This document shows positions 5,478-22,184 of a DNA stretch of 64,000 bases, piece by piece. The notes under the pieces were generated by a model. That model made no database searches and had not been told where the DNA came from. It saw only the letters and a program-made list of their open reading frames with translations. The stretch is from Bacteroidota bacterium (GTDB taxonomy: Bacteria; Bacteroidota; Bacteroidia; B-17B0; Aurantibacillaceae). The first letter of the stretch is position 1, and every line of letters starts with the position of its first letter. The stretch spans positions 1-64,000 of the forward strand of contig JANYEQ010000054.1 in the NCBI GenBank assembly GCA_025363015.1. The letters are read 5' to 3'. The position numbers were made by a program, and so were the translations under genes.

Positions 5478-6479
5478 TTATAATAACTCTTTTACGGTAT
5501 TAATTTTAGCAATTAAATTTTCCGATTCCATAAAATTTAAGGTTTGTTGCCCATCACTATAAGCTTCTTCAGGCTTTTCGTGTACTTCGTAAATAACGCC
5601 ATCAGCCCCTGCAAATAATGATGCTAAGGCAATTTTTGGAACATATTCTCTAATACCAATACCGTGAGACGGATCGGCAATAACAGGTAAATGCGATTTA
5701 TCTTTTAATACTTGTATTGCATTTATATCAAAGGTATTTCTATAAATTGTTTCAAAAGTTCTAATTCCACGTTCGCAAATCATGAGGCGCTCGTTACCTT
5801 TACTAAAAATATATTCGGCCGAATGTAATAATTCTTCAATAGTACCACTTACACCGCGTTTAATTAATACAGGTTTATCAATTTCGCCCAAGGCATCTAA
5901 TAAATTATAATTTTGTGAATTACGCGCACCTACCTGAAATATATCCACGTAATCAATCATTTCGTGTATTTGCGATACTTGCATGACTTCGGTTATTATT
6001 TTAATATTATTTTTTTTGCATTGCTGATGCATCATTTTTAATCCATCAATGCCTAAACCACGAAAAGCGTATGGCGAGCTACGTGGTTTAAAAACACCAC
6101 CGCGCATAATGTGAATATTATTTTTTACTAAATGCTCAACTATTTTGCTTACTTGTTCCTCACTTTCAATAGAACAAGGGCCTGCCATCATTGTTGGTGT
6201 GCCGTTACCAATAATAATATTATTACCTAAATCTATTTTTGTATAGTCGGTTTTCCATTTACGACTCACCAGTTTATAACTATCAGATACTCGATGTATA
6301 TCTTTAATACCTTTTAAATGCCCAATATTTCTTATATCAATATCGACTTTACCAATGCATATTAAATAGTTTTCAAACTGTGTATTAACTTTAGTTACCG
6401 AATATTTTTGTGCTTCAAGTGTTTGATAAATAATTTTAATATCAGCACTACTAATATTTTTTTGCAATTGAATAATCAT
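5478..6479 (-). CDS. aroF: 3-deoxy-7-phosphoheptulonate (DAHP) synthase, type I-beta with N-terminal ferredoxin-like regulatory domain
   Basis: MAGPCSIESEEQ, GGVFKPRSSPYAFRG, QVGARNSQN, DPSHGIG motifs; last gene of trp operon. Confidence 0.9.
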   Translation of the reverse strand: MIIQLQKNISSADIKIIYQTLEAQKYSVTKVNTQFENYLICIGKVDIDIRNIGHLKGIKDIHRVSDSYKLVSRKWKTDYTKIDLGNNIIIGNGTPTMMAGPCSIESEEQVSKIVEHLVKNNIHIMRGGVFKPRSSPYAFRGLGIDGLKMMHQQCKKNNIKIITEVMQVSQIHEMIDYVDIFQVGARNSQNYNLLDALGEIDKPVLIKRGVSGTIEELLHSAEYIFSKGNERLMICERGIRTFETIYRNTFDINAIQVLKDKSHLPVIADPSHGIGIREYVPKIALASLFAGADGVIYEVHEKPEEAYSDGQQTLNFMESENLIAKINTVKELL

Positions 6480-6485
6480 ACTTTT

Positions 6486-7262
6486 TTAGTTTTTTATGGT
6501 TGAAATAAATTGTGAAATATCTTTTTCGAAATTTGTTGAATGACCTACTAACGTTATAAACGACGAGCCTATTATGGCACCGTTTACTAATTTACACGCA
6601 GCATCAAATTCGGGTTTACCTTTAATACCAAAACCCATAAGCAATGGATTTTTTAAATGTAGATTTTTAATATCTTCTACCTTTTGTACTAAGGTTGTTG
6701 GTAACTCTTTACCAGAGCCTGTTGTAGAGTTTGATGATACTAAATAAATAAAACCTTTACTCTGTTCGTCAATTACTTTTATGCGCTGTGCCGACGTATT
6801 AGGGCTAATTAAAAACACAACATGAATATTGTATTTTTGAGCATACACTTTATGAACGCTATTGTATTCTTCTAAAGGTAAATCGGGTAATATAAGCCCA
6901 TCAATCCCCACTTCGTTACATTTTTGGTAAAAGGTTTCAATACCAAATTGTAACACCGTATTAATATATCCCATTAATAATACTGGCATTTGCGTTACAC
7001 TACGAAGGTTTTTTAGTTGTTCAAAAATATTTTTTAAGGTAACACCGTTTTCTAATGCAACTTGGCTACTTTGCTGTATAATAGGTCCATCGGCTAAAGG
7101 ATCAGAATACGGAATACCAATTTCTATTAAATCAACTTTACAAGCATCTAATTGTTTTATGATAGCCAATGTATCATCATGTTTAGGATAACCAGCTGTT
7201 AAAAAAATAGAAAGTATATTTTTGTTTTTTTGTTTAAATAAATTATCAATTCTATTTTGCAT
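6486..7262 (-). CDS. trpA: Tryptophan synthase alpha chain
   Basis: [18 protein letters not shown] and LLMGFGI motifs; trp operon context. Confidence 0.96.
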
Positions 7263-8463
7263 GGGTATGTGTGTCTAAATAGTTAATGTATGTTGTTAAA
7301 TCTTTGTCGCCACGCCCCGATAGATTTAATACAACCGTATCGCTTGGCTTAAAGTTTATTTGAGATAGAGCTGCTAAGGCATGAGCACTTTCTAAGGCAG
7401 GAATAATACCTTCTTTTTGAGTAAGATTAATCACTGCATGCATGGCTTCATCATCGGTAACACTTAAATAGTTTGCACGTTTGGTTTCAAATAAATAAGC
7501 GTGTACAGGTCCTACACCGGGGTAATCTAATCCCGCCGAAATACTATATGGCTCGGTAATTTGTCCGTCATTGGTTTGCATTAAATAGGTTTTACTACCA
7601 TGTATAATGCCAGGTGTACCAACGGTTAGCGTAGCAGCCGTGTGTCCAGAATGAATACCTTTACCCGATGCCTCAACACCAATTAACTGTACCTCTAAAT
7701 CATTTAAAAAATGGTAAAATGCACCAGCAGCATTGCTCCCACCACCAACACAGGCAATTACATAATCAGGATTTTGTTTACCAACACAACTTAGTAATTG
7801 TGTTTTTATTTCGGCGCTAATAACCGATTGAAAACGTGCGACCATATCTGGGTAAGGATGTGGACCAACTACGGAGCCTATAATATAGTGTGTATCCTCT
7901 GCATGATTAATCCAATCTCTAATGGCTTCGTTGGTAGCATCTTTTAATGTTTTAGTACCCGATGTTACGGATACTACTTTTGCTCCCAACATTTTCATTC
8001 GGGCAACATTGGGTGCTTGGCGCTCAATATCGGCTTGCCCCATATATACAATACACTCTAAACCCATTAATGCGCAAACTGTTGCGGTAGCTACACCATG
8101 CTGGCCAGCACCAGTTTCGGCAATAATACGTTTTTTACCTAAACGATTGGCTAATAAAATTTGACCTATTGCATTATTAATTTTATGTGCACCTGTATGA
8201 TTTAAATCTTCGCGTTTTAAATAAATAGTAGTGTTAAATTGCTTAGATAAATTTTTTGCTAAATATAAAGGTGTTGGCCGACCTACATAATTTTTTAATA
8301 AATCATCAAACTCTGTTTTAAACGATTGACTATTCATAATCGTTAAGTAGTTATTTTTTAATTCCTCAACATTATTAAATAATATTTCGGGAATGTAAGC
8401 TCCGCCAAACTGGCCATAATAGCCAAATTCATTTACATTAAATTGATTTTTAGTTGCTGTCAT
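7252..8463 (-). CDS. trpB: Tryptophan synthase beta chain
   Basis: [35 protein letters not shown] motifs. Confidence 0.98.
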
Positions 8464-9082
8464 TGTTAGTTAAGGTTGATATAAATGTTTTTATTTTTTC
8501 TGAATCTTTTAATGCGGCATTAATTTCAAATTTTGAATTAATATCAATACCAAATAATTGTGGGTGATGAAACTGTTTTATTTTATCGATAGACTGTTCA
8601 TCAATACCACCACTTAAAAAAAAAGGTGTTTGTAATTGATAATGTTTTAAAATATCCCAATTAAATTGTTGTCCACTACCCCCAAATGCTTTGGTATCAT
8701 TATCAAACAAAAAATAATCAACATAAGGTATATATTTTTGTATATCCTTAAAATTAAACGTATCGTTAATTCTAAAAGCTTTAATAACTTTTGCGTAGGG
8801 TTTTAACTCTTCACACATAACTTCAGTTTCATCGCCATGAAGTTGCACAACATCTAAATTATAATTTGCTACAATATTTTGTATGGAATTGATCGGTTCG
8901 TTAACAAACACACCCACTTTTTTAATATGTTTTGGAAGAGTTTTTATAAAATCAAAATCTAAAACATCATCAACATAGCGTAGGGATTTTTTATAAAAAA
9001 TAAAACCCATATAATTAATAGGCAACAGACTAAGTTGCTTAATATTATCTTGGTATTTTAATCCGCACACTTTAATTTTCAT
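8450..9082 (-). CDS. trpF: Phosphoribosylanthranilate isomerase
   Basis: [26 protein letters not shown] motifs; operon context. Confidence 0.95.
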
Positions 9083-9089
9083 ATTTATT

Positions 9090-9887
9090 TTAGTTTACGC
9101 TTTGTAAATTTAATTGTTTAATAAACGCTTTACAGGCCAAATCGGGCTGCGGGTGTTTCATGAAATTACTACCAATTAAAAAGCCATTGTAGCCATGTGA
9201 TTTTAGTTTAATAATTGTATCAATATCTTCAATACCACTTTCAGAAACTTTTACAATATGTTTGGGTAATAACGTACTCATGATTATTGATTGATTAATA
9301 TCAAGTTTCATCGTATTTAAATTACGATTATTAACGCCTACCACATTAACTCTATCATATACTTTATCTAGTTCCTCTGGGCCGTGCAATTCTAAAAGCA
9401 CTTCCATACCTAATGAGTGTGCCATATCTGTAAACTGCACAATTTTAGCTTGTGTTAAAATTGCAGCTATTAATAAAATAGCATCGGCACCTATTGATTT
9501 TGCTTCAGTAATTTGATATTCATCAATAATAAAATCTTTACGTAAAATGGGGCAAAAATTAAATTTACGAGCCGTTGTTAAGTCTTCGCTCGAACCACCA
9601 AAAAAAGTTTTATCGGTTAATATGGATAAAGCACTTGCACCAGCTTGCATATAACCAATAGATATTTTTTCGACATTGGCATATTTATTAATTATACCAA
9701 GCGACGGTGATTGTTTTTTTATTTCAGCAATAATACCATTTTTATCTGGGCGTAATAAATATTTAGATAATGAAACTGATTGCGCTTTAAAATAAATGCT
9801 ACGTTCTAGTAATGGCTGTGGGTATAAAGCTTTACGTTCTTTTACTTCAATAATTTTATGCTCAACGATATTAGTTAATGTTTTCAT
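9090..9887 (-). CDS. trpC: Indole-3-glycerol-phosphate synthase
   Basis: IAEIKKQSPS, LRKDFIIDEYQI, GVNNRNL, SESGI motifs. Confidence 0.97.
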   Translation of the reverse strand: MKTLTNIVEHKIIEVKERKALYPQPLLERSIYFKAQSVSLSKYLLRPDKNGIIAEIKKQSPSLGIINKYANVEKISIGYMQAGASALSILTDKTFFGGSSEDLTTARKFNFCPILRKDFIIDEYQITEAKSIGADAILLIAAILTQAKIVQFTDMAHSLGMEVLLELHGPEELDKVYDRVNVVGVNNRNLNTMKLDINQSIIMSTLLPKHIVKVSESGIEDIDTIIKLKSHGYNGFLIGSNFMKHPQPDLACKAFIKQLNLQSVN

Positions 9888-9905
9888 TTTTTAGTTTAAT
9901 TTAGT

Positions 9906-10889
9906 TTAAGATACAAGTTGTTTAAATAATAAATACGTTTTTTTCGATTCAATGGTTTCTTTACAAATAGCTATACACTCTATAACACTTAGTTTAGGAC
10001 TAACGCAATTCATTGCAAAAGCACTATTAACAAGCACTACATTTTTTTGTTCGTTGGTACATTCGTTTTTTAATACATTTAAAAATATATCAGCAGCATC
10101 TTTAATGGTTTCTCCACCCGAAATACTTTGTTGGTTTTGTAATTTAAAACCTAAATCAATAGGTTCTATCGTTTTTTCATAAGTAGATGAAATACACTTA
10201 AATGTGGTAGTTAAACTTATTTCGTCATAGCCATCTAAGGTATGTACTAATGTATAATTTGAATTATTTTGTTGTAAAATATAATGGTACAAACGCGCAA
10301 TATCTAAACCATATACCCCCACATAACGGTGGCTTACACGAGCCGGATTTACCAATGGTCCCAGCATATTAAACAACGTTCGTACACCTAGTTCTTTACG
10401 CTGAGTAGCCACAATTTTTAATGCTGGATGAAACAACGGCGCGTGCATAAAACAAATATTGTGCTTATCTAATTCTTTATTTAAATCGTTTGAATTATTT
10501 TTAAACTGATAGCCCAAGTAATTTAAAATATCGCTTGAACCTGATACAGACGATGAACCATAGTTACCATGTTTGGCTACAGTTATGCCTGATGCCGCTA
10601 ATACTAAGGCCGATAAGGTAGATATATTAAAAGTGTTTTTTTGATCGCCACCCGTACCACACACATCAATTGCATTACGTTCAATAGTTACTGGCACACA
10701 TACATCTAATAAGGCGTTTTTAAATCCGTTTAATTCGTTAGCTGTAATAGGGCGAGCGATATAAAAAGTCATAATGGCACTCATTTGCGAAGCATTAAGT
10801 TTACCTTCACAAATATTTTGAAACAGCTGATAAGCCTCTGTTTCAGATAAGTTATGCCCATGACATAATTTTTCAAATGTTGTTTTCAT
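9906..10889 (-). CDS. trpD: Anthranilate phosphoribosyltransferase
   Basis: DVCGTGGDQKNTFNIST, AKHGNYGSSSVSGSSD, RTLFNMLGPLVNPA motifs. Confidence 0.97.
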   Translation of the reverse strand: MKTTFEKLCHGHNLSETEAYQLFQNICEGKLNASQMSAIMTFYIARPITANELNGFKNALLDVCVPVTIERNAIDVCGTGGDQKNTFNISTLSALVLAASGITVAKHGNYGSSSVSGSSDILNYLGYQFKNNSNDLNKELDKHNICFMHAPLFHPALKIVATQRKELGVRTLFNMLGPLVNPARVSHRYVGVYGLDIARLYHYILQQNNSNYTLVHTLDGYDEISLTTTFKCISSTYEKTIEPIDLGFKLQNQQSISGGETIKDAADIFLNVLKNECTNEQKNVVLVNSAFAMNCVSPKLSVIECIAICKETIESKKTYLLFKQLVS

Positions 10890-10952
10890 CTTTATTATAA
10901 TTTATTTTTTCAATCTATATCGCCGGTGCAACGTATCACTATCTATTTATAA

Positions 10953-11522
10953 TTAAGATTCAATCCAATTTTTAATCATCACTTCTCCATATTCCGAAAG
11001 TATAGATTCGGGATGAAATTGCACCCCTCTTACATCAAAACTAGTATGTTGTAACGACATAATATTTTTTTCTGCATCAATAGATGTAATTTTTAAGCTA
11101 TTTGGTAATTGTAAATTATTTACTACCCAAGAGTGATAGCGCCCAACGGTAAAGGAAGTAGGACAATTTGCAAACACAACATCTTGTTTTACAACGGTTA
11201 TAGGTGTTGCAATACCATGGTAAACGGTTTCTAAATTTTTAAGAGTAGCCCCATAAGCCTCGCCAATGGCCTGTAAGCCTAAGCAAACACCCAATATACT
11301 TTTTGTAGCGCCATACTGTTTTATTAATTGGGGCATAATGCCTGCATCTTTTGGCAAACCTGGTCCAGGTGATAATAAAATTTTATCAAAACGATTAACG
11401 TCTTCTACTAAAATTTTATCGTTGCGTATTACTTCAAATTCTATATCGCTTACTTTTTCAATTAAATGAACTAAGTTGTAAGTAAAACTATCGTAATTAT
11501 CTAATACTAATAATTTTTTCAT
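10953..11522 (-). CDS. trpG: Anthranilate synthase component II (glutamine amidotransferase)
   Basis: LDNYDSFTYNLVH, GVCLGLQAIGE, GVQFHPES motifs. Confidence 0.96.
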   Translation of the reverse strand: MKKLLVLDNYDSFTYNLVHLIEKVSDIEFEVIRNDKILVEDVNRFDKILLSPGPGLPKDAGIMPQLIKQYGATKSILGVCLGLQAIGEAYGATLKNLETVYHGIATPITVVKQDVVFANCPTSFTVGRYHSWVVNNLQLPNSLKITSIDAEKNIMSLQHTSFDVRGVQFHPESILSEYGEVMIKNWIES

Positions 11523-11524
11523 TT

Positions 11525-12943
11525 TTATGCTGATTTAATATTATTAAACTTTTCGGCTTGTAAAATGGCTTTTTGTAAGGCCGATACTTTATGATTAATT
11601 TCTTGTAATTCTTTTTCTTCATCCGACGAAATAACAATACCTGCCCCCGCTTGGTAATGTAGCGTATTATCTTTACTTAAAAATGTACGAATCATAATGG
11701 CGTGGTTTAATTGATTATCGTGACTAATTAAACCGATGCAACCTCCGTAAAATTCGCGAGCTACAGGTTCGTAAGTATCAATTAATTGTAAGGCTTTGTA
11801 TTTTGGTGCGCCCGATAATGTGCCTGCTGGAAAAGTGCCAAACAATAATTCAAATGGATGAAACTGCTGTTTTACCTTACCAACTACCTTGCTTACTAAA
11901 TGTATAACATGCGAATAAAACTGTGTTTGTTTTAAAAATTTAACATTAACAGTATTGCAATACTTACTTAAGTCGTTTCGTGCCAAATCAACCAACATAT
12001 TATGCTCGGCATTTTCTTTAGGGTCGTTGAGTAACTCTTTTGCTTTTTCTAAATCGTAATCATCGTTACCTGTGCGCTTGTATGTACCAGCAATAGGGTG
12101 TATTTCGGCTTCTTGTTTGCTAATTACTAATTGTGCTTCGGGCGATGAGCCAAATAATTTAAAATTACCTAAATCAAAATAAAATAAATAGGGCGATGGA
12201 TTAATATTTTTTAAAGCACGATATACGTTAAAATCATCGCCCGTAAATGTTTGTGAAAACCTACGCGACAATACCAATTGAAACACATCGCCATTTTGGC
12301 AATGCCCCTTAGCCTTTTTTACCATGGTTCGGTAATCATCATCTATTAAAGAACTTGTTGTTTGGCTTGTTGTATTAAAATTAAATTGGCAATGAAAGAG
12401 GCATTGTATCTGCTCTTCAACGGTTAATAATTGTTGTTTTGTTTCTTCTTCAGAAATATGATGGCTAATAACCGTTAAGGTATTGGTAGTATGATGAAAC
12501 ACTAAAATAATACCATACACACTATATAATAAATCAGGAATATCAACAGCTTTAGCGCCTTTACTAAGACTAATATCTTCGGCGTAATTAATACAATCGT
12601 AACCCATATAACCAAATATACCTGCGTAACAAAATGGTAAATTTTGTGTATCAAATATAAATTGTTCTTTAAATGCAATTAATTTTTTTAAAATATTTTC
12701 CGAATCGTTAGTAATGGTTTCTTTAATAATGGTACCATTTATTTTTGTTTTAAATACAGATTGATGTAGCGATACCGTTGCTAATGGATTTAAGCAGATG
12801 TACGAATAATGGCCATCTTTACTGTTGTAATCCGAACTTTCTAACAACAAGGGATTTTGATATAAATCTCTTAATGCCAAATATAAGGCCACTGGTGTTT
12901 TAGTATCGGCTAATAGCTGTGTTGTATGTGTGTATAATTTCAT
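11525..12943 (-). CDS. trpE: Anthranilate synthase component I
   Basis: QLVLSRRFSQ, SSPEAQLVISK, HPIAGTYKRT, GTFPAGTLSGAPK, GAGIV motifs. Confidence 0.97.
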   Translation of the reverse strand: MKLYTHTTQLLADTKTPVALYLALRDLYQNPLLLESSDYNSKDGHYSYICLNPLATVSLHQSVFKTKINGTIIKETITNDSENILKKLIAFKEQFIFDTQNLPFCYAGIFGYMGYDCINYAEDISLSKGAKAVDIPDLLYSVYGIILVFHHTTNTLTVISHHISEEETKQQLLTVEEQIQCLFHCQFNFNTTSQTTSSLIDDDYRTMVKKAKGHCQNGDVFQLVLSRRFSQTFTGDDFNVYRALKNINPSPYLFYFDLGNFKLFGSSPEAQLVISKQEAEIHPIAGTYKRTGNDDYDLEKAKELLNDPKENAEHNMLVDLARNDLSKYCNTVNVKFLKQTQFYSHVIHLVSKVVGKVKQQFHPFELLFGTFPAGTLSGAPKYKALQLIDTYEPVAREFYGGCIGLISHDNQLNHAIMIRTFLSKDNTLHYQAGAGIVISSDEEKELQEINHKVSALQKAILQAEKFNNIKSA

Positions 12944-12956
12944 AAAAAAATTTATT

Positions 12957-12992
12957 AAAAAAAAAGCCCGCTGTTTTGTGAACAGCGGGCTT
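12957..12992 (-). terminator. trp attenuator Rho-independent terminator (minus strand)
   Basis: Perfect 12-bp stem AAGCCCGCTGTT/AACAGCGGGCTT, 5-nt loop, followed on minus strand by a 9-nt T tract, just upstream of the trpE ATG. Confidence 0.95.
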
Positions 12993-13020
12993 GGGATATG
13001 CCTTTATAAGAATATAAATC

Positions 13021-13083
13021 TTAGCTACTCACAACAGTTGTTGAAAGCCACCACCAAAATTTATTTACTACTTGAGTTTTCAT
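13021..13083 (-). CDS. trpL: trp operon leader peptide MKTQVVNKFWWWLSTTVVSS (20 aa; three consecutive Trp codons)
   Basis: Read codon by codon on the minus strand: ATG AAA ACT CAA GTA GTA AAT AAA TTT TGG TGG TGG CTT TCA ACA ACT GTT GTG AGT AGC TAA; lies between promoter and attenuator terminator of trpE; below the size cut-off of the ORF track. Confidence 0.93.
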   Translation of the reverse strand: MKTQVVNKFWWWLSTTVVSS

Positions 13084-13092
13084 TTAATGCTA

Positions 13093-13123
13093 CAAATATA
13101 AAAAGTATTTTTTAGTATGCAAA
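13093..13123 (-). promoter_or_regulatory. Putative trp operon promoter (Bacteroidota sigma-ABfr type: TTTG-N19-TATATTTG)
   Basis: Minus strand TTTG (13123-13120), 19-nt spacer, TATATTTG (13100-13093) matching TAnnTTTG; leader ATG begins 9 nt downstream. Confidence 0.8.
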
Positions 13124-13208: not shown

Positions 13209-14258
13209 ATGATTGATTTTAGTAGAGCGCAATTAACTCATTTTGCAATTAATTTTGTTGGTAATAAAGGTTTAGGTGAAGAACTTACCCTTAGCCAAAA
13301 TCTTATAGAATTTAAAGATGACTTTGTAAAAGAAACCTTATTGCGTTATTTTTTACAACCCTTTAAAACCGATATTTATCATCAATTTAAAGGCAAAGTA
13401 GATATTAGCCTTGCCAGTGTTGCCAATGCTGCCGAAGATTTATTTAAAAGTCAAAGCCAATTTATAAATCACTCACAACAATTGGCACAACATTTATACA
13501 ACCAAAGCAATCACCCAAAAATTAAAGGGGGCGAATTTTATGTCTGTTATTTTAAAGATGCCGTGGTTGATGGAGAATTATGTGATGCCATTGGTTTATT
13601 TAAAACCGAAAATAGAGAAACATTTTTAAAAGTGTTTCAGCATGTAGATACTTTTGATGTAGATTGTGATAACGGTATAAATATTAATAAGTTAGATAAA
13701 GGCTGCCTAATATTTAATACCGATAAAAAAACTAATTACAAGTTAAGCATTATTGATACCAATAATAAAATTGCTGAATGTGCTTTGTATTGGGAAGAAG
13801 ATTTTTTAAACGCAACCATTAAACCAAACGGTTATTATTTTACTAAAAACTTTATAGATGCGTCGCGGGGTTTTTGCGAAGAAATTTTAACAGAAACAAA
13901 TAACGTTGCTAAGCCCGACCAAATGATGATGCTAAACAAAAGTACCTCTTACTTTAAAGATAAAGAAAAAGTAAACGTGGCCGATTTTGAAAAAGATGTA
14001 TTAGTGGAACCCGATTTAATTACTGCCTTTAAAGAGTATAGAAACGATTTTAATAAGCGATTAGATTTAACCGCCGTTGAAGAATTTGATGTAAGTCAAA
14101 CAGCCGTTAAAAAAAACAATAAGTATATGAAAAGTGTAGTTAAACTAGATAAAAATTTTCATTTATACATTCACAGTAGGCACGATTATGTAGAGCGAGG
14201 TTATGATGATGAAAAAGGACTTAAATACTATAAACTATTTTACGTAAACGAAGTTTAG
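13209..14258 (+). CDS. Nucleoid-associated protein, NdpA/37-kDa family
   Basis: Resembles the NA37 family in Bacteroidota (AQLTHFAINFVGNK...FYVCYFKDAVVDGELCDAIGLFK). Confidence 0.75.
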   Translation: MIDFSRAQLTHFAINFVGNKGLGEELTLSQNLIEFKDDFVKETLLRYFLQPFKTDIYHQFKGKVDISLASVANAAEDLFKSQSQFINHSQQLAQHLYNQSNHPKIKGGEFYVCYFKDAVVDGELCDAIGLFKTENRETFLKVFQHVDTFDVDCDNGININKLDKGCLIFNTDKKTNYKLSIIDTNNKIAECALYWEEDFLNATIKPNGYYFTKNFIDASRGFCEEILTETNNVAKPDQMMMLNKSTSYFKDKEKVNVADFEKDVLVEPDLITAFKEYRNDFNKRLDLTAVEEFDVSQTAVKKNNKYMKSVVKLDKNFHLYIHSRHDYVERGYDDEKGLKYYKLFYVNEV

Positions 14259-21671: not shown

Positions 21672-21738
21672 TAATAGAGCGAGCAGTTAATAGTTATTGT
21701 TTTAAATTATCAATCTACGTCCATCCATCTATTTTTTT

Positions 21739-22103
21739 GCAAGTTTGTAAGCCGGGTTCTGTTTCATTTTATCTCTCAATAAAATATATCTATCATTTAT
21801 CTTTGCGACCTACCCATTGTAGCTTTCAATAAATTGAAATAAAGCGAGCCGCCTTAATTACTACAACCTATTTGGCCTTTCAACACCCGAGGTTTACCAA
21901 ATTTAATTATCACTAACTAAATTTGTGAGCTCTTACCTCACATTTTCACTATCACCCTTATTACTAAAGGCTACCTTGTCTCTGTGGCACTTTCTGTTGT
22001 ATGGCATTTTGTGCTATACACCCACTTTTTCAAATGGCGGGTTGCCCTATGTTGCCCGGACTTTCCTCTGAAAAAATTAATTAACAGCGATAGACCAACT
22101 TGC
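21739..22103 (-). ncRNA. rnpB: RNase P RNA (bacterial type A)
   Basis: Minus strand contains CAGAGGAAAGTCCGGGCAACATAGGGC (P4 5' half), ACAGAAAGTGCCACAGAGA, GTAAGAGCTCAC, AACCTCGGGTG, ATGGGTAGGTCGC and 3' ACAGAACCCGGCTTA; 5' GCAAGTT pairs with 3' AACTTGC (P1). Ends approximate. Confidence 0.95.
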
Positions 22104-22184
22104 AGCATAAATTTACGAATAATATTGATAAGATTACTAAAAAAAATGTAATTAGGTTTAATTAAATAAACTAAAACATTAAAC

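Follow-up and report, generated by a model that had tools for sequence, protein, structure and literature searches.

Organization of the trp leader region

A complete leader region lies upstream of a trp operon on the minus strand of the window, the 64,000-nucleotide stretch of DNA from a Bacteroidota metagenome-assembled genome (MAG) analysed here, at positions 12957-13123 (coordinates read from the sequence; all leader features given below are on this strand). The first regulated gene is trpE (11525..12943, ATG at 12943; Pfam PF00425, PF04715), which is followed by trpG, trpD, trpC, trpF, trpB, trpA and then a DAHP synthase gene (5478..11522, minus strand; Pfam PF00117, PF00591, PF00218, PF00697, PF00291, PF00290 and PF00793). 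The divergent neighbour of the operon encodes a 37-kD nucleoid-associated protein (13209-14258, plus strand; Pfam NA37), and a bacterial RNase P RNA of class A is found at 21732-22106 of the window on the minus strand (RF00010, 189 bits).

The promoter, judged by its sequence, is probably of the sigma-A type, with a -33 element TTTG (13120..13123) placed 19 nt upstream of the -7 box TATATTTG (13093..13100; consensus TAnnTTTG). The spacing of the -7 box predicts A13088 as +1 and thereby a 5' UTR of only 5 nt (AUUAA, 13084..13088) without a Shine-Dalgarno sequence. In 100 of 114 leaders a strict TAnnTTTG stands no more than 30 nt from the ATG, as against 2.3% of shuffles, and its spacings to the ATG cluster at 4-5, 7-10 and 15-19 nt. 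The -7 box has been mapped at -12 to -5 in F. psychrophilum (PMC9723704) and a Bacteroidota -33 motif has been described (PMC7366714). By the F. psychrophilum box position the leaders would have 5' UTRs of ~0-1, 3-6 and 11-15 nt, lengths which are drawn from motif position in leaders that are related, so that the counts are not independent. The published 5' UTRs of F. psychrophilum have a median of 24 nt with 5.5% leaderless (PMC9723704), and in B. thetaiotaomicron ~3.7% are under 10 nt (PMC7366714); the predicted trp-leader 5' UTRs (~0-15 nt; 5 in the window) are much shorter than the published medians of the phylum.

The leader ORF MKTQVVNKFWWWLSTTVVSS comprises 20 codons (13021..13083, stop codon at 13023-13021) and carries three sensor codons, UGG-UGG-UGG (13048..13056), of which WW or WWW is kept at the same position in relatives; homologous ORFs were found in 12/12 genus genomes with trpE. 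Its last sense codons hold the antiterminator strand, region 2, with the core UUGUGAGUAGC at 13024..13034, which is supported by shuffles, cross-family pairing and folding. This is the leader geometry that the original prediction had implied, with the ORF at 13083-13021, the Trp codons at 13056-13048 and region 2 in the final sense codons. Adjoining the core is a CUG extension (13035..13037), specific to the window, that can pair with the 3' arm of the terminator. In the MFE fold, region 1 (13053..13064) forms the 5' strand of a 1:2 protector or pause helix, whose 3' strand at 13014..13025 is also consistent with pairing energies in window-type leaders. Downstream is an intrinsic terminator hairpin (3:4), AGCCCGCUGUU-CACAA-AACAGCGGGCU (12965..12991; dG -19.2), which covaries in relatives; its loop CACAA lies at 12980-12976, and it runs into nine T's (12957..12965). 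Region 3, GCUGUUCACAA (12976..12986), takes in the top of the terminator 5' arm and the loop and is the partner of region 2.

Pairing of region 2 with the terminator and its conservation

The antiterminator had originally been proposed as a 14-nt pairing between the end of the leader ORF and the terminator, with 12 Watson-Crick pairs, two G-U pairs and one 2-nt bulge. Read directly, minus 13037-13024 is CTGTTGTGAGTAGC and 12986-12971 is GCTGTTCACAAAACAG, and the complementarity is present with exactly this pair count, the bulge being of A's. The position of the bulge is degenerate and can slide, because two U's pair with either of two AA pairs. Pairing of the UU with the AA that adjoins CAC yields a continuous 11-bp helix UUGUGAGUAGC:GCUGUUCACAA (13034-13024 with 12986-12976), beyond which the outer three pairs, CUG:CAG, lie across the AA bulge. 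The duplex energies were -8.4 kcal/mol for the 9-bp core, -11.0 for the 11-bp helix and -13.1 for all 14 pairs, CUGUUGUGAGUAGC (13037-13024) with GCUGUUCACAAAACAG (12986-12971). The best duplex of the stall-freed leader segment with the terminator reached -16.8 kcal/mol (z = -3.9) and was equalled by 0/200 dinucleotide shuffles; this test is a weak discriminator, since the antiterminator of E. coli itself scores only 42/200 in it.

The search of relatives with RF00513 was too noisy, with matches at E <= 1 in 89/100 genomes and above the cut-off only in the window, and it was replaced by TrpE loci and a genus-built model. TrpE was found in 12 of 40 genus genomes and the leader lay directly upstream in all 12, with the Trp run, region 2 and the terminator each present in 12/12. 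In these leaders the ATG follows the TAnnTTTG box by 8-10 nt, 2-3 Trp codons stand at the same position, the terminator is present and the ORFs mostly end V-N-S-stop. A covariance model built with the terminator hairpin only, for the order and class searches, gave strong matches in 28/87 order genomes, the same 87 genomes as in the family search, and in 23/395 of the class sample. TrpE loci were also taken from named genomes of many Bacteroidota genera (Flavobacterium, Aquimarina, Maribacter, Dyadobacter and others), and in 77 of the 80 a short ORF containing two or more Trp codons was found close before trpE. In all, 118 distinct leaders were collected, the E. coli control included. As a separate observation, TrpE at E <= 1e-60 was detected in only 12/40 genus genomes (12/33 good ones), and several near-complete genomes were without TrpE, which hints at frequent tryptophan auxotrophy in the genus.

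Across Bacteroidota the 11-bp antiterminator core recurs at nearly all trpE promoters examined, and between clades it covaries. In the alignment of the genus, both-side changes occur at three pairs of the terminator, and the 9-bp core is paired in 86% of cells, with both-side changes at two pairs, while slid versions of it are paired in 25-48%; the 2:3 helix is mostly invariant within the genus and covariation there is weak. Across families the pairing is kept with changed sequence, as in GAACAGC:GCUGUUC, AGAACGG:CCGUUCU and GAUCGG:CCGAUC, and also AUAAACAGC:GCUGUUUAU, GAUGAACA:UGUUCAUC and CGUGAACU:AGUUCAUG. Covariation in homologues, which had been named beforehand as a possible refutation, thus supports the core pairing, between clades. 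Several leaders have a stop codon that has shifted to the upstream side of the pairing strand and still keep this strand within the shadow of the ribosome; the strand is therefore selected as RNA and not as peptide. For the 1:2 helix of window-type leaders, own pairs had -7.95 kcal/mol vs -4.95 for swapped ones, and the 1:2 covariation was clear in this type and weak in the Flavobacteriaceae type. Swapped 2:3 partners pair nearly as well as own partners within each type, a control which is uninformative because the sequences are near-invariant.

Conservation of the 14-nt pairing as one unit was rejected. The outer CUGUU:AACAG pairs were paired in 46.7% in relatives, which did not exceed the shuffles and was lower than one slid control, and CUGUU in region 2 occurs in the window only among window-type leaders, its pairs not being kept in relatives. 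"14-nt" hence overstates the conserved extent: the pairing exists in the window, but the conserved helix is of ~9-11 bp only. Likewise, of the suggested invasion of both terminator arms, the part that engages the top of the 5' arm and the loop belongs to the conserved core, whereas that reaching the 3' arm is specific to the window.

In the clade to which the window belongs, and in several other families, the partner of region 2 is the 5' arm of the terminator together with the loop. The Flavobacteriaceae type (71 leaders; L099-L177) has instead a conserved strand (G)UCGUGA, usually including the stop UGA, which pairs with UCACGA(C); this partner spans the loop and the start of the 3' arm, and the 5' arm is not the main one. 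Both halves were present in 66/71 of these leaders, in which a segment farther downstream can also pair with the base of the 5' arm. When region 2 and terminator were crossed between the types, the mean energy was ~-10.2 to -10.7 vs -14.2 and -14.65 for own partners. We tentatively put forward, as a reading somewhat short of an even chance, that Bacteroidota trp leaders represent a distinct design, with a near-leaderless ORF (~0-15 nt 5' UTR), no Shine-Dalgarno sequence and a loop-anchored antiterminator, which in the window's clade extends into the 5' arm and in Flavobacteriaceae and the like reaches into the 3' arm. If true, the antiterminator of the Flavobacteriaceae geometry would capture the strand that closes the terminator, and not only the opening strand.

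Computed ribosome-dependent switching and the proposed mechanism

Switching was examined in masked folds, in which the transcript extended to the end of the terminator loop and the part covered by the ribosome, together with everything upstream, was blocked. With the ribosome on Trp1 or Trp2 and a footprint of +10 to +18 nt, the mean 2:3 pair probability was 0.92-0.93, and that of the 9-bp core was 0.98 before region 4 is transcribed. With the ribosome on Trp3, 2:3 likewise formed at footprints of +10 to +14 nt, with a slight loss at +16. The probability drops across codons 14-16 and was 0.00 with the ribosome at codon 17 or at the stop. The same switching behaviour was observed with the E. 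coli trpL control. In these computations, therefore, the two-state switch that had been predicted is borne out in both its positions: a ribosome stalled on UGG-UGG-UGG leaves the pairing segment free, and a ribosome at the stop covers it and abolishes the antiterminator.

Once the complete hairpin of the window is transcribed, the free fold has -36.8 kcal/mol vs -22.9 with 2:3 forced, and at full length the terminator hairpin dominates in every state, as it does in E. coli trpL; two Flavobacterium leaders retained some antiterminator even at full length. An antiterminator unable to compete with the terminator had been named as grounds for abandoning the model; at full-length equilibrium the terminator indeed wins, but in the masked folds 2:3 forms before region 4 is made. 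Equilibrium folding of the full leader would thus mislead here, as for E. coli. Since the full-length terminator is far more stable, the switch would have to be kinetic, with 2:3 already formed before region 4 is transcribed. When no ribosome is present, 1:2 (-16.0) is the first helix to form, and once region 3 has appeared it differs little in energy from 2:3 in the window (-18.8 vs -19.4), so that untranslated basal termination, through protection by 1:2, rests on the order of folding.

The locus thus combines a short ORF that carries tandem Trp codons and immediately precedes trp genes, an intrinsic terminator between this ORF and the first gene and, by computation, an alternative antiterminator that is freed by the ribosome at the Trp codons and covered at the stop, features that mark a ribosome-mediated trp attenuator. 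All parts, their conservation and covariation and the masked-fold switching were computed, and we consider it very probable that the element is a ribosome-mediated transcription attenuator of the trp operon (trpEGDCFBA); the transcription start, the ribosome-polymerase coupling, the response to tryptophan and the kinetic preference are what we infer in drawing its mechanism. RNA polymerase would start at ~13088 and a ribosome would start translating the leader ORF very near the 5' end. Under a shortage of Trp-tRNA, the ribosome would wait on the UGG codons (13056-13048) and leave region 2 (13034-13024) free, which could then pair with region 3 (12986-12976) as it emerges, before region 4 exists; the terminator (12991-12965) would be blocked and trpE-A transcribed. 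When Trp-tRNA is plentiful, the ribosome would reach the stop and cover region 2, the terminator would form and transcription would end at the T run.

It may be argued that nothing more than an intrinsic terminator stands behind a short ORF here, and that the complementarity is a by-product of coding and of the terminator palindrome, as a palindromic terminator always offers complementary sites and the E. coli antiterminator reaches only 42/200 in the shuffle test. The window, however, gave 0/200, the pairing strand is kept even where the stop codon lies upstream of it, and in distant families its changes go along with those of the terminator, which makes this explanation very improbable. Control of the terminator by a trans-acting factor, namely a TRAP-like protein, T-box tRNA sensing or a Trp riboswitch, is known for trp genes in Firmicutes, but here the conserved elements are exactly the Trp-codon run and the alternative helices. 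No T-box or other sensing family was found at cut-off in the window, where no T-box riboswitch match was listed up to E 10 either, and a (G/U)AG repeat array was not apparent in the sequence; we give such control hardly any credence. The T run ends just 13 nt before the trpE ATG, which brings read-through structures near the start and could suggest that the leader controls translation of trpE, by start-site occlusion or reinitiation, and not termination. A G+C-rich hairpin followed by nine T's has, however, the usual make-up of an intrinsic terminator, and hairpin and T run are conserved together, so that this too is a most improbable account. Ribosome-mediated attenuation of transcription is the reading we retain.

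Related leaders and comparison with known systems

In one relative (G029), trpF and trpB make up a separate transcription unit that carries its own Trp leader, MKTHLNTNLFWWPADSYNREHWH (L080 1501-1627, G029:C227), with a terminator and a GUGAACA:UGUUCAC pairing; each part of the split trp operon therefore has its own attenuator. The genome of the window has two hisG genes, each behind a His-rich leader ORF (MKNLNQIHHHHSAFTKVSKGVEGIL and MQKFNQIHHHHSTATQVSGGVDAIL; L190, 1971 to about 1846, minus strand, G000:C57, and L180, minus strand, G000:C94), with a GGCUUACC...GGUAAGCC terminator and the same short promoter-to-ATG spacing. From their sequence, these appear to be his attenuators of the same build as the trp leader, and they are seen also in relatives. 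A search of the same genome for ilvB (TIGR00118) found nothing. Ribosome-mediated attenuation requires a translating ribosome close behind the polymerase. Attenuators in front of trpE across Bacteroidota, and of hisG in the genome of the window, would thus be indirect evidence that transcription and translation are coupled early in this phylum, which has an unusual sigma factor and does not use Shine-Dalgarno sequences.

Structured 5' regions before amino-acid operons of F. psychrophilum have been reported to give 'strong clues' of leader-peptide attenuation (PMC9723704); unlike the present analysis, the main text of that study deals with neither tryptophan nor an antiterminator model. In the part of the literature searched we came upon no study that tests trp attenuation experimentally in Bacteroidota. 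Very short 5' UTRs of the leader mRNA, and the Flavobacteriaceae variant that pairs with the terminator loop and 3' arm, may be less known.

The E. coli trp leader has a longer 5' UTR with a Shine-Dalgarno sequence. The window shares with E. coli trpL the sensor UGG codons, the 1:2, 2:3 and 3:4 helices and an AGCCCGC...GCGGGCU terminator, whereas region 2 follows the stop codon in E. coli and is made of the last sense codons in the window. With the Rfam model RF00513 (Trp_leader) the window scored 42.4 bits against a cut-off of 41, immediately upstream of trpE, a formal match that is marginal, since the close orthologues tested scored only 26.7-32.1 bits, below the cut-off. With RF01692 (Bacteroid-trp), listed by Weinberg et al. 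2010 (PMC2864571), it scored 45.0 bits and fell below the cut-off of 49, although it fits the description of that family, a Bacteroidota Trp leader RNA placed ahead of trp genes; the cut-off was exceeded by relatives from Flavobacterium and Allomuricauda, several of them Flavobacteriaceae. The window resembles Bacteroid-trp in being a Bacteroidota Trp leader RNA with a short Trp-rich ORF, a 1:2 hairpin and a place before trp genes. It differs in that the Rfam model stops inside the terminator 5' arm and leaves the terminator and the antiterminator pairing unmodelled, and in that the window's region 2 has the 5' arm and loop as its partner, against the loop and 3' arm in the Flavobacteriaceae type. 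The original prediction is right in its core and overstated in length, and amounts to a good annotation of a known type of regulator. The element is of a kind already known in the phylum, and the window is a divergent member of it, narrowly inside RF00513 and outside RF01692, that supplies the antiterminator and terminator parts absent from the Rfam Bacteroid-trp model.
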